From contig DAHUYE010000017.1 in the NCBI GenBank assembly GCA_027315345.1, positions 1 through 49,008 of the forward strand: DNA of 49,008 nt, written 5' to 3'. Of this stretch, positions 35,195 through 45,535 are shown piece by piece; position 1 is the stretch's first letter; every line of letters begins with the position of its first letter. The notes under the pieces are model-generated. The model was not told the origin of the DNA. It searched no databases and worked only from the letters and a program-made list of their open reading frames with translations. Both the position numbers and the translations under genes were made by a program. This stretch comes from Actinomycetota bacterium. Its GTDB lineage: Bacteria > Actinomycetota > Acidimicrobiia > Acidimicrobiales > JAJPHE01.

Positions 35195-35770
35195 TCAGGA
35201 CTCGCTGAGGTCCTCGGCCGCCTGGCGCACCTGCCAGTCGCGGTCTTCCCGGGCCCGCTCCAGGGCGGCATCCACCTCGGGTCCTTCGAAGGGAGCCAGG
35301 GCGATCACCGCCCGGCGCCTCACGGCGGGTCGGTCGGCGGTGGCGGCCAGGATGGCGGCCAGCCCATCGGGATGACCGATGGCCCCGAGGGCGGCCACGG
35401 CCGACTCCCGGCACAGCGGATCACTGTGTCCGCTCGCCATGGCGGCCAGGGCCGGCACCGCCGATGGGTCCCCGCGCTCGCCCAGAGCCCAGGCGGCCAT
35501 CTCGGCCACGGCTGCTTCATCCTCCAGCCGGGCCAGGAGCTCCGTTTCGGGATACCCGGCGGCCAGCTCACAGGCTCTCCGGCGGACACCCGGATGAGGG
35601 TCGCCCAGGGCTGTCTCCAAATCCGCCGGGCTCAGCTGGCCCATCCGCTCCAGGGCCCCGAGGGCCACGGACCGGACCTCGGGGTCGTCGTGGGTGAGGA
35701 AGGTCCGGGCCGCGTCCGCGTCGCGGCGGTGGCCGGCCGCCGCCGCCGCCCGCAGGGCATCCCCGGTCAA
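35195..35770 (-). CDS. HEAT-repeat protein
   Basis: A 191-residue all-helical protein of about five to six 30-residue HEAT/PBS-lyase-like units, each with the pattern D-P-x-V-R-x-x-A-x-x-A-L (for example DPEVRSVALGALERMG, DPLCRESAVAALGAIG, RPAVRRRAVIALAPFEG, DWQVRQAAEDL). Such scaffolds bind proteins. The start is taken as TTG at 35770 overlapping the TGA of the upstream gene (TTGA); no ATG or GTG fits. Convergent with mreB. Confidence 0.8.
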   Translation of the reverse strand: MTGDALRAAAAAGHRRDADAARTFLTHDDPEVRSVALGALERMGQLSPADLETALGDPHPGVRRRACELAAGYPETELLARLEDEAAVAEMAAWALGERGDPSAVPALAAMASGHSDPLCRESAVAALGAIGHPDGLAAILAATADRPAVRRRAVIALAPFEGPEVDAALERAREDRDWQVRQAAEDLSES

Positions 35771-36264
35771 CTGCCGGAGTGGCCGAAGAGGGCGACCAGA
35801 ACGAGCACGGCGGCACTGATGGTCAGGGCGGCGGCCACCCCGAGGACCGCGGCCAGGATCAGCAGCTTGGCCAGAGCCCGACCCCGGGACGGCGCCTCGA
35901 TGACGAGCCGGGGCGCCTCCGGGACGGAGGCGGCTCGAGCCGGGGCGACCGGTGCCATCTCGGTGGTGGCCGGCGGAGCGACCGGTGCCATCTCGGTGGC
36001 GGCCGGCGCCACCGGCGTCTCCCCGGAGGCCACCGGCGGGGTAGGCCCGGGGGTCGGCGGGACGGTCCCGGGCCCGGTCGGAACGGTGGCGGGAGCGAAC
36101 GGGTCCAGGTCCAACATCCAGTGCCACCAGTCCCCGGAGGGCCCCGGGTCCAGCCGGGTGAAGGGAAGCTCAGCGGACCCGTCAGGTTGTCCGGCCGCCG
36201 GGGGGGGCGGGGTGCCCGCGCCTTCGGCAGGTGGCTCCCCGCCGGTCTGGTCGGGGACGCTCAT
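35767..36264 (-). CDS. Pro/Ala-rich tail-anchored membrane protein
   Basis: A 165-residue protein. Residues 1-105 are Pro/Ala/Thr-rich and cytoplasmic by charge, with a WWHWMLDLDPFAP patch near 46-58 and a duplicated TEMAPVAPPAT element. A single membrane helix (about 132-158) ends the protein after the basic stretch SRGRALAKLL. No family recognised. It is coupled to the HEAT-repeat gene, and the pair may form a membrane-tethered scaffold. Confidence 0.65.
   Translation of the reverse strand: MSVPDQTGGEPPAEGAGTPPPPAAGQPDGSAELPFTRLDPGPSGDWWHWMLDLDPFAPATVPTGPGTVPPTPGPTPPVASGETPVAPAATEMAPVAPPATTEMAPVAPARAASVPEAPRLVIEAPSRGRALAKLLILAAVLGVAAALTISAAVLVLVALFGHSGS
35945..36010. repeat. two 33-base direct repeats within the Pro-rich gene
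   Basis: Two adjacent 33-base units starting GCGACCGGTGCCATCTCGGT differ at only a few bases in their ends and encode, on the minus strand, the repeated TEMAPVAPPA-type element. The frame is preserved. Confidence 0.8.
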
Positions 36265-36426
36265 CGGCTCGGGGCGAGACGAAAGCAGCCACCCGGCATG
36301 GCAGGCTGTAGCAGCCGGGTACCGATGGGCCGGCCGACTGCCGACTCACAGGAGAACTCAACCGCGTTGGACCCGATGAAACAGATGGTACCGGGCCGGT
36401 CCCGGTCCGCATGGGCTTCAAGGACG

Positions 36427-37476
36427 ATGACCGAGCGACTGTTCCCCTGGACGCTGGGCTCCCTGATCGCCCTGGCCGTAGCGGTGTTGCTGGTGGCTGA
36501 ATTCCTCCACATCCCGTATTACGAGTTGTCCCCCGGGCCGACGGCGCCGGTGTCCGAACTCATCTCCGTACCGGCGTCCCATCGCCACCCGGTGCACGGA
36601 TCCCTGCTGCTTGTCACCGTCTATCAAACCCATCTCACCACCGCCGGCTATCTGCGGGCCCAGGTGAGCAGCAACGTGGCCGTCTACAGCGCGGCGCAGA
36701 TCCTGGGCGGTCTTCCGGCCAGCCAACTGGTGGCCCAGGACCAGGCGGAGATGTCCCAGTCGCAGCAGTCGGCCGAAGTGGCCGCTCTGCGCCGGCTCGG
36801 ATACTCCGTCCCCGAGCACGGCACCGGGGTGCTGGTGGCCTATATCCTCAGCCACACTCCGGCCGCCAAGGCCCTCCAGGTGGGTGACACCATCCTGTCC
36901 ATAGACGGCCAGGCGACCCCCACTGACAATCAACTGGTCGCCGCCCTGGCCCAGGACCACCCCGGGCAGTCGGTCAACCTCTCGGTTCAGAATGCCAAGG
37001 GTCAGGACCGCTCCGTGAAGCTCACCCTGGCCAAACGCCCGGGTTCCCCGTCGGGAGGATTCCTCGGTATCGAGCCTCTCACCCGGGATGACCGCTTCGA
37101 CTTCCCCATCAAGATCGCCATCAACGCGGCCGGAATCGGTGGGCCCTCGGCCGGGCTGGCCTTCACCCTGGGAATCATCGATGCCCTCACCGGTGGCAAC
37201 CTGACCGGCCGGCACGTGATGGCCGCCACCGGGACCATCGACGTCGACGGGAACGTAGGGGATGTGGGCGGCGTGGCGGAGAAGACCGTATCCGTGGCCC
37301 GGGCCGGCGCCACCCTCTTCCTGGTTCCGCCCCAGGAGTACGCCACCGCCCGGGCCCACGCCGGGCCCCACCTGAAGGTGGTGGCGGTCTCCACCCTGCA
37401 ACAGGCCCTTACGGCGATCGGAGCCAACGGAGGGGACTTGCGCGACATACCTCCCCCTCCTCCGGCCTTTCGGTAG
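36427..37476 (+). CDS. membrane-anchored PDZ and Lon-like (S16) serine protease, YlbL type
   Basis: A 349-residue protein with an N-terminal membrane helix (about 7-27), a PDZ domain (GVLVAYILSHTPAAKALQVGDTILSIDGQ read in part) and a C-terminal Lon protease domain. The catalytic dyad is present: Ser241 in GIGGPSAGLAFTLGIID and Lys286 in VGGVAEKTVSVARAGATLFLVP. Proteins of this type face outward and cut membrane or secreted substrates in Gram-positives. The ATG at 36427 follows AAGGACG. It leads to the histidine kinase gene 43 bases downstream, so stress sensing and proteolysis may be linked. Confidence 0.9.
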   Translation: MTERLFPWTLGSLIALAVAVLLVAEFLHIPYYELSPGPTAPVSELISVPASHRHPVHGSLLLVTVYQTHLTTAGYLRAQVSSNVAVYSAAQILGGLPASQLVAQDQAEMSQSQQSAEVAALRRLGYSVPEHGTGVLVAYILSHTPAAKALQVGDTILSIDGQATPTDNQLVAALAQDHPGQSVNLSVQNAKGQDRSVKLTLAKRPGSPSGGFLGIEPLTRDDRFDFPIKIAINAAGIGGPSAGLAFTLGIIDALTGGNLTGRHVMAATGTIDVDGNVGDVGGVAEKTVSVARAGATLFLVPPQEYATARAHAGPHLKVVAVSTLQQALTAIGANGGDLRDIPPPPPAFR

Positions 37477-37519: not shown

Positions 37520-40132
37520 ATGGGAGCATCGGCAGCCCAGTTCGAGTTCGCCGCTGAAATCGTCACCTTCCTGGTCGCCCTGGCCGGGTTCGCACTGGTT
37601 CTTCTGAGGGCCCAGCTCTACGGGGCCACGCCGCCGCGGTCGGTGACCCTGGGTACAGCCTTCGCGTCGCTGGGAACGGCGGCGTTCATCCACGGCGCCG
37701 TGAGCCCTCAGTTGAACGCGCCGCCGGCGGTCACGGGGCTCAGGCTGGGCGCGGCAGTTCTGTTCGCGGTGGCGAGTACCGGCTCCCGGGGCCGGTCAAG
37801 GCTGCCTTTACCGGCCGTGTCGGGAGGGGCCCTCCTGATCGGAGCGGCGGGGATCGGCGCCTTCTGGCTGGCTCGGGTGCCGGCCGAGAGCCTGCTATTG
37901 GCCGGGTCGCTCGTAATCGGAGCGGCATTGGCCTATGCCAGTCGCGGTTCGATCGGGGCCAAGCTGACCGCCACCGCCGGCGCCACCCTCCTCCTGATGG
38001 TCGTGGTTCTTTCCATCGCCCTTTCCACCGTGCTGTCCACCACCGTCAGGGACGACGCCATCAAGCGGCTCCAGAGTCGAGCGGACCGGGCCGCGGCCTC
38101 GGCGTCGACGGCCTGGCAGTCCGAACTCCAGGACGCCAAGCTGGTCTCCTCCTCCATTCAGGGCCTCGGCCTGGCCGCCCCGGTGGCGGCCGGGACCCCG
38201 GGGGCTCAGGCCCGCTTGGCCACCGGGTTGTCGGACCTGGCCACGCAGTTCTTCAGCAATGTGGGACTGGAGTGGGTGGGACCGAGCGGGGCGGTGGAGG
38301 CGGTCTCCCCGCAGTTCGGGAAGGACTTCGGTGCCTCGGCGGCCGCGGATCTGGCCGGCAGCAGCCTGGTCCGCCGGGCGCTGTCCATCGGCGCCTGGGC
38401 CGGCACGTCGGGGGTGGTCGGGCGCGCCGCGCTGGCGGTGGGGGCGTACCCGGACGCGGCCGGTGGATCGGTGCTCGGAGTGGCCTTGGCCGTGAGCCCG
38501 TTGGATTCGAGCTTTTTGGATTCGGAGATCGGGGACGACACCACCCTGTCCGCCGTGCTGGTCTCCAACGGGGTCGTGCTCAGTTCGTATCCGACCCGGA
38601 CGCCCCGGCCCGATCCGGCCGAGCAGGCTCTGGCCGGCGCCTACCAGTCGGGCCGCCGGGAGGCGCCGATCACCAGTGACGGGCGCTACACGGCCGGAGC
38701 CAGCGTGCTGGCCGGCAGCGGTCAACCGGTCATGGCCTTGCTGGTGGAGACGTCGACCTCGGTAGTCGACGCCACCCGACAGTCGCTCTTCCACGACCTG
38801 TTCCTCATAGCCCTGGGCGGTTCGATCATCGCCTTCCTCGTCTCGGTGCTCATAAGTGATCGCATCAACCGGGGGTTGGAGCAGCTCACCGCGGCCGCCG
38901 GGCGGATCAGCAGTGGGGAAAGCGGCGTCCGCACCGGCGTGGTGGCCAGCGATGAGATCGGCGTGCTCGCCGACGCCTTCGATTCCATGGCAGCGTCCAT
39001 CGAGGAGAAAACCTCCGCTCTGAGCCAGGCGGCGCTGGACGAGGCCGCCCTGCGGGGCCGGTTGGAGTCGGTGGTGTCGGGCATGGGTGAGGCTCTGGTG
39101 GCTCTGGATCCGCATGGGCGGATCACCGAGTTCAACACCGCCGCCGAGCGTCTGACGGGCCGGTCGCGCTCCCGTAGCCTGGACCGGCCGGCCGCGTCGG
39201 TCTTTGAGGTCAGGCTGGACGGCGGTGGTGACCTGATCGAGCGGATCCGGACCGGACTCGAACGACCCCTCACCGGTCAGGGGACCCTGGTCAGGGATGA
39301 CGGCCTCGTACCCGTGTCGGTGTCGGCGGCCGCCTACGAGGTTGAACCGGGAGAAGCACCCGGAGCGGTGGTGCTTTTGCGCGACCTACGTCCAGAGCGC
39401 GAGCTGGAGCAGATGAAGACGGAGTTCCTCTCCCGGATCGGGCACGAACTGCGTACTCCACTGACGGCCATCCTCGGCTTTGCCAGGCTGCTCGCATCCC
39501 GGCCCGTACCGCCCGCCCAGGCCGAGATGCTGCACGACCAGATTCTGCAGCAGTCCAACCGGCTGCTTCGGACCGTCCAGATGCTCGAGTTCTTCGCCTC
39601 GGCCGGAGCCAATCGACTGGGCCTGGATCTGGCCCGGGTATCGGCCCGGGATCTGGTGGACGACGCCTCGGGCCGGTGGGAGGGTCGGATCGAGGCGGAC
39701 CAGGAGTTGCGTTGGCAGGTCGGCCGCGCTCTGCCGGAGGTGGAGGCCGACCGGCGCTGGATGGGGTTGGCCCTGGATGAGCTCATCGACAACGCCGTCA
39801 AGTTCTCCCCCGACAGCGTGAAGGTCCGGGTCTCGGCCGGCCGCAGCCCGGACGGAGGGCTGTCCATAGCCGTGACCGACCGGGGACAGGGGATGTCGGA
39901 GGAGGATCTGGGGGCGGTGTTCGACGAGTTCGTGCAGGGCGACTCGTCCGACACGCGCCAGTTCGGAGGGCTGGGGCTGGGCCTGCCTCTGGCTCAGAGA
40001 GTTGTCGAGGCCCACGGGGGCCGGATCGAAGTCTCCTCCCGCCCAGGGCGGGGATCGAGCTTCACCATCCTTCTTCCCTCTGCCGACCGTCCGTCCCGCC
40101 GCCGGAGCCGGCCGGGTGGGTCACGAGTCTGA
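37520..40132 (+). CDS. membrane sensor histidine kinase with HAMP and PAS
   Basis: An 870-residue kinase. Four to five N-terminal membrane helices (1-135), then a helix at about 150-172, an extracytoplasmic sensor region (about 175-415), a helix at about 425-447, HAMP (450-500), a PAS-like domain (SGMGEALVALDPHGRITEFNTAAERLTG, about 515-620), HisKA with the phospho-His in FLSRIGHELRTPLTAILGF (about 643) and HATPase with N box ELIDNAVKFS, G1 DRGQGM and G2 GGLGLGLPLAQRVVEAHGG. No response regulator lies next to it, so it is an orphan here. Confidence 0.92.
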   Translation: MGASAAQFEFAAEIVTFLVALAGFALVLLRAQLYGATPPRSVTLGTAFASLGTAAFIHGAVSPQLNAPPAVTGLRLGAAVLFAVASTGSRGRSRLPLPAVSGGALLIGAAGIGAFWLARVPAESLLLAGSLVIGAALAYASRGSIGAKLTATAGATLLLMVVVLSIALSTVLSTTVRDDAIKRLQSRADRAAASASTAWQSELQDAKLVSSSIQGLGLAAPVAAGTPGAQARLATGLSDLATQFFSNVGLEWVGPSGAVEAVSPQFGKDFGASAAADLAGSSLVRRALSIGAWAGTSGVVGRAALAVGAYPDAAGGSVLGVALAVSPLDSSFLDSEIGDDTTLSAVLVSNGVVLSSYPTRTPRPDPAEQALAGAYQSGRREAPITSDGRYTAGASVLAGSGQPVMALLVETSTSVVDATRQSLFHDLFLIALGGSIIAFLVSVLISDRINRGLEQLTAAAGRISSGESGVRTGVVASDEIGVLADAFDSMAASIEEKTSALSQAALDEAALRGRLESVVSGMGEALVALDPHGRITEFNTAAERLTGRSRSRSLDRPAASVFEVRLDGGGDLIERIRTGLERPLTGQGTLVRDDGLVPVSVSAAAYEVEPGEAPGAVVLLRDLRPERELEQMKTEFLSRIGHELRTPLTAILGFARLLASRPVPPAQAEMLHDQILQQSNRLLRTVQMLEFFASAGANRLGLDLARVSARDLVDDASGRWEGRIEADQELRWQVGRALPEVEADRRWMGLALDELIDNAVKFSPDSVKVRVSAGRSPDGGLSIAVTDRGQGMSEEDLGAVFDEFVQGDSSDTRQFGGLGLGLPLAQRVVEAHGGRIEVSSRPGRGSSFTILLPSADRPSRRRSRPGGSRV

Positions 40133-40158: not shown

Positions 40159-42486
40159 ATGGCCGGTGACCTCCCCCGACCCTCCCATTACCCGGTTCCG
40201 CTGTCGCCGGATGAGTTGAGGCGACACTCGTTCACCAACTCCTTCCGGGGTTTCGATCCCGGTGAGGTCAGGGAGCTGCTCGACGCCGTGGCTGTCGAGC
40301 TGGAGCGCCTCATCCGCAGCGAGGAGGCGTTGAGGGCCGAGCTCCGCCAGGCCCGGCAGTCAGCCGCCAGCCCCCGGCTGGACGAGGCCACTCTCACCGC
40401 CGCCCTGGGCAATGAAGCCGCCCAGATCCTGCACTCGGCCCATGAGGCCTCGGCCGAACTGCGCCGGAAGGCGGAGGACAGCGCCGCCCGGGTCCTGCGC
40501 GAAGCCCAGATGGCGGCCGATTCCCTGCGCGCCTCTTCGGAGGGGCTCCTGTCGGAGCGCACCTCCGAGGCTGAGGCGGGGGCGGAAGCCATCCGGGCTG
40601 GGGCTCAGGCTGAGGCACAAGCCATCGTGACCCGGGCCCGGGAGCAGGCCGAAGCGGCTCTGACCGAGGCCCGGGCCCGCTTCGACGCCATGTCCGAGGA
40701 GGCCGAAGCGCTCAAGGCCAGAGTGCTGGGCGATCTGACCCGCCGGCGCCGGAATCTGGTGGCCCAGCTCGAGCAACTGGGGGCGGGTCGCGACAGCATG
40801 CTCCGGGCGGTTGGGGACGTCCGCCGTCTGATCGATCAGGTGACCGGCTCCTTGGAAGGCCTCGAGCTGGAGGCCAAGGCGGCCGCCGACAACGCCCTGG
40901 ACCGGGCCCGCCGGGCGCCTGATCCGGATGAGCCCGTGTTGGAGGAACTCGTCCAGACCGGACTCGGGGCCGCCTCCCTGGGCGCGCCACCGCCGACGCC
41001 GGCGGAGTCGGTGGCCGAGACCCCCGCACCGGCCGTTTCCATCCCGGCCCCGACTGTGTCGACGCCGGCTCCGGCCGCTTCCATCCCGGTGCTCGGCCAA
41101 CACGAACAACCGGCTCCGCCGGCTCCAGCCGTTCTTCCCCGGGGCTGGGTCCAGCGGACGGAAAGGGCTCCGGTGCCCGAATCCCCGCCGGAGCCCGAGC
41201 CGGTTCACGAACGGCGGATGTCATCCCTCCGGATTCTGCGCCGGCGGGAGGAACGAGCCCATTCTTCCGAGTCGGGCCCCCCGCCGCTTCCGGAGGAGGG
41301 GATCCGGATAATCCGCCCCGCCCCGGCGGAGGCAGAGCCGGCGGCGGAGCCGCTAAGCCCGGCTCCACCCGTCACCCCGCCGTTGTCCCCGGTGGTTCAC
41401 GCCACGACCGCCGCCTCTCCGGCTCCGCCGGCTGCCCAGTCTGAGGAATTACCGGCACCGGAGTCAGTCCGGCCCCAGGGCGCGGATGGGGTACGGGTTG
41501 AAGGGACCGAGGGCGCTGACGCCGAGCGGCCCTCGGTCGATGAACTGTTCGCCCGGCTCCGAGCCGAGCGGGAGGCGGCCCGCCGGGATGCCGATGCCAT
41601 CTTCTCCGATCTGCCCGCCCCGGGGCCCGGCCGCGCCGGGTCCGATGCGGAGCCAGGACGGGCTGAGGTCCCGGCCGTGGAGCCTGAGACGGCTGTGGCG
41701 GCCGCCTCGGGTGGCCCGGAAGGAGGCGGTGCGACCGGGGCGGGCGAGCCGGTTGGCGAGGCGGCGGGCCAGGAACTCCGAGCCGAGCCGCCGGCGGAGG
41801 AGTCTTCCGAGGACTCCCAGGAGAACTGGCTGCAGCGGCGCAACCAGATGTTGGCCCCGGTCCACGACCGCCTGGCCCGTAAGTTGAAGCGGACGCTGCA
41901 GGATGACCAGAACGATCTCCTGGACCGGGTGCGCAGCAGCACCCGCCACCCGCAGGCCGAGCCACTGCCCCCGGAGTCGGATCACCAAGCCCGCTTCGCG
42001 GCGGCGGCCGAGCCCATCCTCGGGGAGGCCTTCGAACGGGGATCCGAATTCGCCCGGTCGGCCCTGCCTGGAGTCTCGGGTGGGGATTCCGGGGCCGCGC
42101 ACACCCGGAGTGTCGCTCGGGCTCTGGCCGCTGACCTGGTCGGCGATCTCAGGGTCCGCCTAAGCCGAGCCGTGGCGGAACCGGGCTTCGATGAGGCCGG
42201 TCTGGCCGACCTGGTGGGTTCGGCCTACCGGTCCTGGAAGGGAGCTCGGATCGAGGGTCTGGCCATGGACCATCTGGTGGCCGCCTTCGAACGCGGCGTC
42301 CTCGCCTCCGTTCCCCCCGAAGCCAGGCTCGTCTGGGTGGTCGATGATGACGGCGGACCCTGCCCGGACTGCGATGACAACGGACTGGCCGGAGCCACAA
42401 CGGCCGGCTCGGAGTATCCGACCGGCCAGACCCATCCGCCCGCCCATCCCGGGTGTCGCTGCCTCCTGGTGCCTGCCCTCACCTAG
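40159..42486 (+). CDS. DivIVA-type coiled-coil protein fused to a phage head-morphogenesis-like Cys/His domain
   Basis: A 775-residue protein. Residues 14-65 resemble the DivIVA membrane-curvature domain (LSPDELRRHSFTNSFRGFDPGEVRELLDAV). A Glu/Ala/Arg coiled coil follows (about 45-245), then a Pro/Ala/Glu-rich disordered linker (250-560). Residues about 575-775 are ordered again: a helical lead (SAYRSWKGARIEGLAMDHLVAAFERGV) and the end VWVVDDDGGPCPDCDDN...YPTGQ...HPPAHPGCRC with Cys735, 738, 766, 768 and His759, 763. That ending matches the pattern of phage Mu F / SPP1 gp7 head proteins (CPxC...PP-x-HPxCRC). Likely a pole or septum scaffold; the role of the tail is unknown. UPF0182 follows 11 bases later. 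Confidence 0.8.
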   Translation: MAGDLPRPSHYPVPLSPDELRRHSFTNSFRGFDPGEVRELLDAVAVELERLIRSEEALRAELRQARQSAASPRLDEATLTAALGNEAAQILHSAHEASAELRRKAEDSAARVLREAQMAADSLRASSEGLLSERTSEAEAGAEAIRAGAQAEAQAIVTRAREQAEAALTEARARFDAMSEEAEALKARVLGDLTRRRRNLVAQLEQLGAGRDSMLRAVGDVRRLIDQVTGSLEGLELEAKAAADNALDRARRAPDPDEPVLEELVQTGLGAASLGAPPPTPAESVAETPAPAVSIPAPTVSTPAPAASIPVLGQHEQPAPPAPAVLPRGWVQRTERAPVPESPPEPEPVHERRMSSLRILRRREERAHSSESGPPPLPEEGIRIIRPAPAEAEPAAEPLSPAPPVTPPLSPVVHATTAASPAPPAAQSEELPAPESVRPQGADGVRVEGTEGADAERPSVDELFARLRAEREAARRDADAIFSDLPAPGPGRAGSDAEPGRAEVPAVEPETAVAAASGGPEGGGATGAGEPVGEAAGQELRAEPPAEESSEDSQENWLQRRNQMLAPVHDRLARKLKRTLQDDQNDLLDRVRSSTRHPQAEPLPPESDHQARFAAAAEPILGEAFERGSEFARSALPGVSGGDSGAAHTRSVARALAADLVGDLRVRLSRAVAEPGFDEAGLADLVGSAYRSWKGARIEGLAMDHLVAAFERGVLASVPPEARLVWVVDDDGGPCPDCDDNGLAGATTAGSEYPTGQTHPPAHPGCRCLLVPALT

Positions 42487-42497
42487 AGTTCCCGCCC

Positions 42498-45410
42498 GTG
42501 CGGACCATTACCGACCGCCCCGCCCGGGGCCGTCCTTCTCGCGGGCGGATCGGCCTCCTGATCCTGGCGGTCGTCATAATCATCCTGATCCTCTCCTTGA
42601 GGGGAATAGCCGGGTTCTACACCGACTACCTCTGGTTCGACTCGGTTCATTTCACTTCGGTGTTCCGGGGTGTTGTCGTGACCAAGGTGGTACTGGCCGT
42701 CATCTTCTGCGCCCTCTTCTTTATCGGGATACTGGCCAGCCTCACCGTCGCCGACCGGCTGGCGCCGGCGGCCCGGTCCATGGGACCCGAGGATGAGTTC
42801 GTCCAACGCTACCGGGACACGGTTGGCCCTCACGCCAGGAAGGTGCGCCTGGCCATATCGGTGATCTTCGCCTTGCTGGTGGGGACCGGCGCCAGCGGGC
42901 AGTGGAACACCTGGATCGAATTCCGTAACGCCGTCTCCTTCGGTGTGAAGGATCCTCTGTTTCACAAGGACGTCGGATTCTTCGTGTTCCGGCTGCCGTT
43001 CTACTCCTGGCTGCTCAGCTGGGTGTTCCTGGCCGTCGTCGTCATCACCATCGTCACCGCCGTCGCCCACTACCTGAACGGCGGCATCCGACCCCAGGCG
43101 AGCTCCAACCGGGTGACTCCACAGGTCAAAGCCCACCTGTCCGTGCTGCTGTCGATACTGGCTCTGCTCAAGGCCATCGGCTACTACCTGGCTCGGTACC
43201 GGCTCGACCTCTCCACCCACAGCGTCGTCAACGGTGCCCTGTACACCGAAGTGAAGGCTCAGCTGCCGGCGCTGACCCTGCTGGCGGTCATATCCATAGT
43301 GGCCATGATCCTGTTGGTCACGAACATATGGATGAAGGGCTGGGTGTTGCCCGCCCTGGGCGTCGGGCTGTGGGCGCTGGTGGCCGTCATCATCGGGGTC
43401 ATCTATCCGGCCTTCATCCAGAAGTTCCGGGTCCAGCCGGCAGAGAACGCCTTGGAGCGCCCTTATCTCCAGCGGAACATGTCAGCCACCACCGCGGCTT
43501 ACGGAATAGGCACCAACCAAGTGCAGGTCACGCAGTTCAACTACACGCCCGATGTCAGTGCCACCGACCTCAATCTGGACGCCGACTCCATTCGGAACAT
43601 CCGCCTCTGGGATCCGGCTTTCGCTGCGCAGACCTACCAGAAGCTGCAAGAGATCCGGTCTTATTACAACTTCCCCAACAACGACCTGAGCATCGACCGT
43701 TACATGCTCAACGGCCAGCAGACCCAGACCCTCCTGGCCGTTCGTCAGATGAACGCGGCCGATCTACCTCAACAGTCCTGGGTAAATCTCCACCTCCAGT
43801 ACACCCATGGATACGGAGCCGTCCTCTCGCCGGTCAATGCCGCGACCACCGATGGCAACCCGGTCTTTGACATCTCTGACGTCCCTCCCGTCTCCAATCC
43901 CGGCGCGCCCTCGATCACCCAGCCCGATGTCTATTTCGGCCTCGGTATCAACGGTTTTGTGATCGTCAACACCAAGACCCCCGAGATCGACTACCAAAAC
44001 GCCGACGGCTCGAACGTGACCAGCAGCTACACCGGAGACGGGGGTGTCCAGCTCAGCTCCTTCCTGCGGCGCGCCGCTTTCGCCGTCCGATTCGGTGATC
44101 TCAACACGCTCATATCCGGCCAGATCAAGCCGACATCCAGGATCATCTTCGTCCAGGACATACAGCAGGAAGTGGCCAAGGCCGCCCCATTCCTCCAGTT
44201 GGACTCTGATCCTTACGCCGCCATCATCAATGGTCGGATCGAGTGGATACAGGACGCCTACACCTCGACGGCCGCCTACCCCTACTCCCAGCTGGCCGAC
44301 ACCTCGTCTCTCCCGTCCAACAGCGGGCTCAACATCCCTCTCAACTATGTGCGGAACTCGGTCAAGGTGGAGATCGACGCCTACACAGGGCAAATGAAGT
44401 TTTACGTGATGGACCCATCCGATCCCATTATCCAGTCCTATGAGAAGGCTTTCCCTGGCCTGTTCACTTCGGGCTCAAAGATGCCCATGGCCTTGCGAAA
44501 GCACCTGCGTTATCCGGAGGATCTGTTCCGGATCCAAACGGCCATGTATGGCCGCTACCACATCACCAACATCAACGACTTCTACAACGCTGCCGATGCC
44601 TGGAACGTATCCCAGAGCGCCGGTGTGGGCTCGCCCACCGCCACCAACCAGACGGTCACCACGGATGCCGCTGGTCTGGTCGTCTCGACCGTACAGAAAC
44701 GGATGGATCCCCAGTATGTGTTGGTCCGCCTGCCCGGCCAGACCCAGCCCGGTTTCATGCTCCTGCAGACGTTCGTCCCGGCCTCCCAGGGGGACAAGCA
44801 GCAGAACCTCTCGGCCTTCATGGTCGCGGAGTCTGATCCGAGCGACTACGGACAGCTCAAGGTCTACGAGACGCCACCGGGGGCCTCCATCCTCGGTCCG
44901 GCATTGGTCGATGCCCAGGTGGCCGCCGATCCGGCCATAAGCGAACAGATCAGCCTCCTCGACCAGCACGGCTCCAACGTTGAGTTGGGCAACCTCCTGG
45001 TGATCCCCATCCAGCACTCGCTCGTCTACGTCCGCCCGCTCTACGTAGAGTCGAGCACGAACCCCCAGCCGAAACTGGAAGACGTCATTGTTGCCTCGGG
45101 GACCCAGACAGCCATGGCCTCGACCCTGCAGGCTGCCCTGACCGCGGTCTTCGGATCGGCGCCGGCCACCCTGGAGCAGAGGGCGGGGTCTTCCCCCGCC
45201 ACCCCGGCCAAGGGCTTGTCCTCAGCCGCCGCCCAGGACCTGACCGCCGCTGCCCAGGACTACCAAAAGGCCCTGAACGACCTGCAGTCGGGCAACCTGG
45301 GCGCCTACCAGCAGGACGTCAACAACATGGGCCAGGCCATTGACGCCGCCAACGGCCAGTCCTCGGCCTCCACCACCACGACCACCACCCTGGTCCCGAA
45401 CGGGACCTGA
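42498..45410 (+). CDS. UPF0182 family large membrane protein
   Basis: A 970-residue protein of the actinobacterial/cyanobacterial UPF0182 family, function unknown. The N-terminal 320 residues hold about seven membrane helices (first at about 18-37), with the typical YTDYLWFDSVHFTSVF and VGFFVFRLPFYSWLLSW. The large extracytoplasmic region carries the family hallmarks ERPYLQRNMSATTAAYGI, RLWDP, HGYGAVLSPVN, YFGL, KFYVMDPSDPIIQSYEKAFPGLF and HLRYPEDLFRIQ, then a Thr-rich tail. GTG start at 42498. Last complete gene before the tRNA; probably co-transcribed with the DivIVA-like gene. Confidence 0.93.
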   Translation: MRTITDRPARGRPSRGRIGLLILAVVIIILILSLRGIAGFYTDYLWFDSVHFTSVFRGVVVTKVVLAVIFCALFFIGILASLTVADRLAPAARSMGPEDEFVQRYRDTVGPHARKVRLAISVIFALLVGTGASGQWNTWIEFRNAVSFGVKDPLFHKDVGFFVFRLPFYSWLLSWVFLAVVVITIVTAVAHYLNGGIRPQASSNRVTPQVKAHLSVLLSILALLKAIGYYLARYRLDLSTHSVVNGALYTEVKAQLPALTLLAVISIVAMILLVTNIWMKGWVLPALGVGLWALVAVIIGVIYPAFIQKFRVQPAENALERPYLQRNMSATTAAYGIGTNQVQVTQFNYTPDVSATDLNLDADSIRNIRLWDPAFAAQTYQKLQEIRSYYNFPNNDLSIDRYMLNGQQTQTLLAVRQMNAADLPQQSWVNLHLQYTHGYGAVLSPVNAATTDGNPVFDISDVPPVSNPGAPSITQPDVYFGLGINGFVIVNTKTPEIDYQNADGSNVTSSYTGDGGVQLSSFLRRAAFAVRFGDLNTLISGQIKPTSRIIFVQDIQQEVAKAAPFLQLDSDPYAAIINGRIEWIQDAYTSTAAYPYSQLADTSSLPSNSGLNIPLNYVRNSVKVEIDAYTGQMKFYVMDPSDPIIQSYEKAFPGLFTSGSKMPMALRKHLRYPEDLFRIQTAMYGRYHITNINDFYNAADAWNVSQSAGVGSPTATNQTVTTDAAGLVVSTVQKRMDPQYVLVRLPGQTQPGFMLLQTFVPASQGDKQQNLSAFMVAESDPSDYGQLKVYETPPGASILGPALVDAQVAADPAISEQISLLDQHGSNVELGNLLVIPIQHSLVYVRPLYVESSTNPQPKLEDVIVASGTQTAMASTLQAALTAVFGSAPATLEQRAGSSPATPAKGLSSAAAQDLTAAAQDYQKALNDLQSGNLGAYQQDVNNMGQAIDAANGQSSASTTTTTTLVPNGT

Positions 45411-45458: not shown

Positions 45459-45535
<77 letters not shown>

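Follow-up and report, generated by a model that had tools for sequence, protein, structure and literature searches.

A DivIVA-type scaffold of Acidimicrobiia with a putative domesticated phage MuF domain at its C-terminus

Why would a protein that begins like the bacterial scaffold DivIVA end like a minor head protein of a phage? The question is raised by an open reading frame (ORF) in the window, i.e. the whole stretch of DNA analysed here, which comprises 49,008 nucleotides of an Actinomycetota bacterium of the order Acidimicrobiales (GCA_027315345.1, contig DAHUYE010000017.1). An earlier note, made from the sequence alone, had read this ORF as a DivIVA-type scaffold to which a phage-derived domain was recruited, perhaps as a zinc-binding or assembly module. 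As far as the accessible portions of the published sources go, descriptions of MuF domains have so far concerned phage heads and toxins delivered by phages. If such a domain has indeed been kept in a cell-organising scaffold across several bacterial classes, it would plainly illustrate how a viral structural part becomes cellular infrastructure.

The fusion gene, its neighbours and its distribution

The position and length of the ORF, as given before, were confirmed from the sequence (Table 1). Its N-terminus matches PF05103 with an E-value of 9.5e-18 and a score of 64.9 bits (cut-off 28), which qualifies it for the DivIVA family. TIGR03544 also matches this domain, and residues 13-64 match the solved DivIVA domain of B. 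subtilis (2wuj, 5.5e-6), so that the claimed DivIVA-type start is borne out. All four cysteines of the protein sit in the knuckle end (735, 738, 766, and 768), and they were found, together with His759 and His763, at the positions that had been claimed for them.

Table 1. Features of the fusion gene and its neighbours in the window.
Feature	Coordinates	Strand	Evidence
PDZ-LonC (S16) protease frame	35779..37476	+	PF13180, PF05362
HAMP-PAS-HisKA-HATPase sensor kinase, 26 bases upstream of the fusion	37520..40132	+	Pfam
DivIVA-MuF fusion gene, 775 aa	40159..42486	+	ORF sequence; DivIVA and tail in one frame in 66/75 loci
DivIVA domain, residues 15-133	40201..40557	+	PF05103, TIGR03544, 2wuj
Pro/Ala/Glu-rich linker, approximately residues 231-566 (about 335 residues)	40849..41856	+	disorder by composition only
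SVDELFARLRA short linker motif, residues 459-469	41533..41565	+	pattern search of homologous linkers
MuF helical body, residues ~567-720, five helices	41857..42318	+	AF2 model, body-only hhalign, conservation
MuF knuckle CPDC...HPPAHPGCRC, residues ~721-775	42319..42483	+	knuckle-only hhalign, residue counts
UPF0182 membrane protein	42498..45410	+	PF03699, E 3.4e-267

The fusion is the only match of two DivIVA models in the window genome, which is 97.7% complete, and DivIVA profiles found nothing in the 20 kb around ftsZ-sepF of this genome. A DivIVA gene usually follows sepF-yggT; in the window genome sepF is followed by a YggT-like frame (assigned by eye) and then, in the usual place of DivIVA, by a membrane protein whose long tail is rich in Lys and Ala (L226:10664-11464). 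Further PF05103 matches, some of which are split hits, were recorded in many relatives, and the fusion is thus not always the main scaffold.

The scanned neighbours of the fusion gene are cellular. Pfam confirmed the mreB, S16 protease, kinase and UPF0182 genes named in the earlier note, and the full set of Pfam names near the fusion (mreB, HtrA-like, Zincin_2, HEAT, LonC, kinase and UPF0182) contains cellular genes only. No phage gene was detected among the scanned neighbours, which did not include every ORF of the window. The UPF0182 gene probably starts with a GTG 11 bases past the stop of the fusion, its longest frame running from 42453, and a tRNA-Thr(CGT) directly follows it (45459-45535). 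The LonC protein matches SepM_fam_S16 at 1.1e-36, yet it remains below the cut-off of the model. On the minus strand lies a HEAT-repeat gene (35195-36127) that overlaps the long LonC frame at its 5' side, and the true LonC start is therefore probably located further downstream.

This arrangement is conserved. In 56 loci with flanking sequence, hand-picked for spread, UPF0182 lies downstream of the fusion on the same strand without exception, and in 55 of them its matched part begins no more than 270 bases away. PDZ-LonC is found upstream in 44 of the loci (four of the 12 misses have fewer than 100 bases of upstream sequence) and a related kinase in 14.

Concerning distribution, the tail was detected in 33 of the 41 genomes of the order, i.e. 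the window genome and 40 relatives, one per genus, and, across the class, in 131 of the 198 genomes sampled (86/104 genera). It is patchy in two other actinobacterial classes (8/24 and 16/66 genomes). The organism labels on five loci read Acidimicrobiaceae, Acidimicrobiales and, in one case, Actinomycetes. The DivIVA part shares an open frame with the tail in 66 of 75 tail-bearing loci, and eight of the nine exceptional frames are cut off by a sequence end no more than 95 bases away. The one real exception is a 115-aa frame before UPF0182 (L193:6498-6842) that carries the MuF end without DivIVA, possibly owing to splitting of the gene, a frameshift or misassembly. The joining error that could have refuted the earlier reading can thus be discounted, and both the fusion and its neighbourhood recur in Acidimicrobiia, a point on which that reading was to be checked. 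It follows that the fusion is an old, widespread gene rather than a local oddity. Prophage decay, already judged unlikely, does not fit such class-wide spread and fixed gene order. As side observations, a DivIVA frame downstream of LonC (L197:4563-6575) presents by eye only a faint MuF-like first helix (ALTRKVKRALQEVEN), its tail not having been found by the tail profile, while one genome (G052) has two tail-bearing places (C19 and C23), both matching the helical part only.

Relationship of the tail to phage MuF domains

The resemblance of the tail to phage proteins was evaluated with two alignments. The first (A2) consists of 36 homologous host tails and is restricted to knuckle-bearing members; of two knuckle-less sequences, L037 was omitted and L038 was never included. 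The second (A3) holds 40 phage MuF sequences out of 43 non-redundant ones, and 39 of the 40 match PF04233 at E<=0.01. The phage set was collected via motif-based patterns and for this reason leans to PxHxGCRC ends. Comparison of the two alignments with hhalign gave a probability of 99.6% and an E-value of 4.7e-25 over 162 columns. The knuckle alone reached 8.1e-21. For the helical body by itself, the E-value was 2.2e-6 and the score 41, with helices 2-5 aligned, as compared to control scores of at most 10.2 for 20 column shuffles, 17.4 for the reversed phage body and 14.7 for other DivIVA sequences. In addition, 34 of the 36 host tails match the portal family phrog_2662 at E<=1e-3 (best 1.7e-14), and the window tail by itself matches the C-terminal end of this family at 6.1e-5.

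Simpler searches were less informative. The profile check suggested in the earlier note had a divided outcome: the window tail obtained 17 bits with PF04233, under the gathering cut-off of 29.6, while the profile-profile comparison with phage MuF succeeded. PF04233 was matched at E<=0.01 by 14 of the 36 host tails (best 5e-6). For the window tail, MuF homology consequently rests on profile and structure comparison. A tblastn search with two single tails against 50,697 phage records returned none at E 0.01; with the limit set to 10, the matches ranged from 0.03 upwards and the best was a putative portal gene. An HMM restricted to the helical body did not match any phage ORF below 0.04 in 80 viral loci. 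Judged by sequence, only profile-profile comparison resolved the homology of the body to phage MuF.

Structure prediction points in the same direction. An AlphaFold2 model of the tail built from six host sequences and no phage sequence had a pLDDT of 76 and a pTM of 0.73. Foldseek comparison of this model with predicted viral structures gave six matches at E<=1e-3 (best 4.7e-5, TM up to 0.72), and the named top matches are mostly minor capsid, head morphogenesis and portal proteins. Phage head proteins are thus the best viral matches of the phage-free model in the very test that had been proposed for this tail. The superposition is loose, with an rmsd of at least 3.9 A among the matches listed. 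After the addition of 17 phage MuF rows, pLDDT rose to 90.5 and pTM to 0.86, and 42 viral matches at E<=1e-3 were obtained (TM up to 0.82); this second model depends in part on phage sequences, and alignment depth alone may lift its confidence. Foldseek against the PDB retrieved nothing at E<=1e-3, and the PDB searches yielded no solved MuF structure with which the tail could be compared. In the PDB, VIA-align returned generic helical bundles and the A3 profile a weak portal match (8qqn, 0.00095) and still weaker megabodies, whereas the A2 profile weakly matched ZorA (0.004). As far as predicted models can tell, the tail has the same fold as phage MuF. The MuF-type ending inferred earlier is therefore supported by both the profile-profile and the predicted-structure matches. 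Since the gene order does not place the fusion beside a portal gene, it does not qualify as a phage head protein, and the tail is better described as a MuF-derived domain.

In a quick tree, 57 host tails and 40 phage MuFs were split by one branch with an SH-aLRT of 97.5. Four mis-cut or partial sequences (L182, L012, L193 and L194) were excluded; the tree needs two changes with them and one without. Both host/phage trees are quick ones with long-branch warnings, and the phage set is limited to MuFs from the motif search. A quick midpoint-rooted tree of UPF0182, for which 55 of the 56 loci passed the length filter, placed each of the two other classes in its own supported branch, a topology that fits descent or old transfer and not recent transfer.

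Role of the body, knuckle and linker

Taken together, the hhalign comparison, the structure matches and the class-wide fusion support the recruitment of a phage-derived domain to a DivIVA-type scaffold. We consider it reasonably probable that the protein is a membrane-bound scaffold of the DivIVA type, in which a domesticated phage MuF domain serves as a C-terminal docking end that acts with UPF0182 and/or LonC; localisation, partner and zinc are all inferred. A more specific scenario, to which we would give about an even chance, is that a phage head-assembly module was captured a single time, before at least three actinobacterial classes split, and still functions in docking or assembly, now at the pole or septum with UPF0182 and LonC. 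In some lineages, the present one among them, the fusion would be the only DivIVA, and would thus belong to the core division or shape machinery.

The way such a protein might work can be outlined only by inference. The DivIVA end would bind the membrane at the pole or septum and multimerise, as other DivIVA proteins do. The linker peptide and the MuF body may then constitute two docking sites on a flexible arm, and the body, which in SPP1 would be the portal attachment part, may now grip a partner of the cell. According to the available parts of the sources, the MuF protein gp7 of SPP1 binds the portal (PMC6316719; PMC5576092). The PF04860 portal is absent from 14 of 15 tail-bearing genomes (other portal families were not covered), and the partner of MuF is hence probably cellular. 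The likeliest candidates would be encoded in the same gene cluster, i.e. UPF0182 and PDZ-LonC, or would belong to the division machinery on which these act. Large parts of UPF0182 and LonC are presumably extracellular, in which case little of either protein would be within reach of a cytoplasmic MuF end. We take YlbL to be a relative of PDZ-LonC, and Rv3193c to be a UPF0182 protein. As far as the consulted parts of the two sources go, YlbL and CtpA jointly counteract YneA, an inhibitor of division in B. subtilis (PMC6051672), and Rv3193c is an entry of a Tn-seq table alongside division genes (PMC8093794).

The linker offers a candidate for one of the docking sites. The distance between the DivIVA and tail profiles varies from 47 to 1145 aa (median 294; 63 loci, the remaining three of the 66 having no usable linker). 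The pattern [LIV]F..[LIV][RKQ] is present in 38 of these 63 linkers, whereas 500 shuffles gave 0.5 on average and never more than 4. The pattern was picked after the sequences had been seen, and the shuffles ignore relatedness, so that this contrast cannot be read as a probability. The motif recurs in the form V-D-x-L-F-A-[RK]-[LI]-R within otherwise disordered-looking linkers. The LFxxLR pattern was found in none of 14 linkers from the two other classes; it is likewise missing from all 29 distinct DivIVA frames of the class that are not fusions. The motif is also present in a fusion of 1476 aa (L218:6222-10649), with 1145-1147 aa between the profiles.

With regard to the body, host tails share the signatures LKRxLQDDQN in helix 1 and YREWK in helix 4 (YRSWK in the window protein), which are, along with K577 and R691, its most conserved residues. 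A TE pair that is nearly invariant in the phage MuF set is not kept in host tails. These differences suggest a new partner for the body. It could be argued that this partner is DNA, the MuF end having retained a gp7-type binding activity that anchors the chromosome at the pole or septum. DNA-binding activity has been reported for SPP1 gp7, to which the title of Stiege 2003, as cited elsewhere, refers as a DNA-binding protein, and basic residues of the host tails (R574, K577, R578, R592, R691 and K694) are conserved. However, the host tails are acidic (median pI 5.2, charge -8; pI 5.6 and -6 for the window tail), which is only weak evidence against DNA binding because the sampled phage MuFs are acidic too (pI 5.4, -4.5). 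DNA tethering is, in our opinion, unlikely, and ranks below docking to a protein partner of the cell.

A role of the knuckle as the working part, in metal or redox sensing or as a catalytic site with the helices as mere carrier, finds some basis in residue conservation. C766 and C768 are invariant in A2, H763 is present in 35 of its 36 tails, and D740, N741 and P754-T-G756 are invariant or nearly so among host tails. However, C735 is altered in four of the 36 and C738 in three, leaving 32 and 33 respectively, the knuckle is degenerate in five more loci (L200-L203 and L217), and H759 occurs in only 25 of the 36, so that it is not a conserved ligand. Furthermore, the knuckle is absent from 9 of 55 loci in which the body and the DivIVA part remain, corresponding to about eight changes on the UPF0182 tree, at least five of them forced by well-supported branches. 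The nine losses were called by eye, with the five degenerate knuckles counted as kept. The linker motif is retained in seven of the eight knuckle-less loci that could be assessed. A knuckle-centred function therefore seems distinctly improbable, and zinc binding as the main role, which the earlier note had entertained, is weakened by the repeated loss of the entire Cys/His end. Loss of the knuckle with retention of the body implies that the latter is probably the essential part of the tail, and suggests that the knuckle is an optional stabiliser; where present, it would stabilise the MuF end.

It is also conceivable that the MuF end acts as an anti-phage decoy, which binds portals as gp7 does and poisons the assembly of incoming heads. 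The occurrence of the tail in most sampled genomes of the class, at one locus and with envelope genes, speaks against this idea, as does PADLOC, which gave no whole-protein match and only a weak match of the tail to DpdH (0.0056), and we regard it as very improbable. Finally, a chance or convergent knuckle unrelated to MuF, a prophage remnant or an assembly join could be invoked on account of the sub-threshold PF04233 score, the weak tblastn matches and the non-significant body HMM, but can be practically ruled out by the controlled body-only profile match, the structure matches, the single frame in many genomes and the lack of any PF04233 or PF04860 match in the window genome. A docking end derived from phage MuF thus remains the reading that we prefer.

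Comparison with known systems

No publication on the DivIVA-MuF fusion, on DivIVA of Acidimicrobiia or on DivIVA in connection with phage portals was found in the open-licence literature, nor did the entries listed on domestication concern this fusion, and the available part of a structural survey of DivIVA in Actinobacteria contains no mention of phage, zinc or Acidimicrob (PMC12393619). UPF0182, uncharacterised according to Pfam, is now tied to a DivIVA scaffold and to the LonC protease, and its role thereby becomes testable.

Like members of the DivIVA/Wag31 family (PF05103), the fusion starts with a DivIVA domain, after which come a helical stretch and disordered segments. What sets it apart is a long linker in which an LFxxLR-type motif often occurs, a folded C-terminal MuF domain, and the position of its gene between LonC (or a kinase) and UPF0182. 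With the phage minor head MuF proteins (PF04233; MuF1-4 of Jamet et al., 2017; SPP1 gp7 and Mu gpF) it shares the body and the C..C...PxHxxCxC knuckle, although the sequences of SPP1 gp7 and Mu gpF themselves were outside the MuF comparison. Unlike these proteins, the host domain stands behind DivIVA, has no portal neighbour, carries its own signatures, does not keep the TE pair and may lack the knuckle. As for the portal family phrog_2662, it is the C-terminal end that the host tail matches, while the host protein is without a portal domain. Finally, the MuF polymorphic toxins and polyvalent phage proteins, as described in the available parts of two studies, also have MuF fused to another domain (PMC5576092; PMC5512222). 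No toxin domain was found in the fusion protein; MuF toxins carry a C-terminal effector in phages, according to the same partial sources, whereas in the scaffold it is MuF itself that forms the C-terminus.
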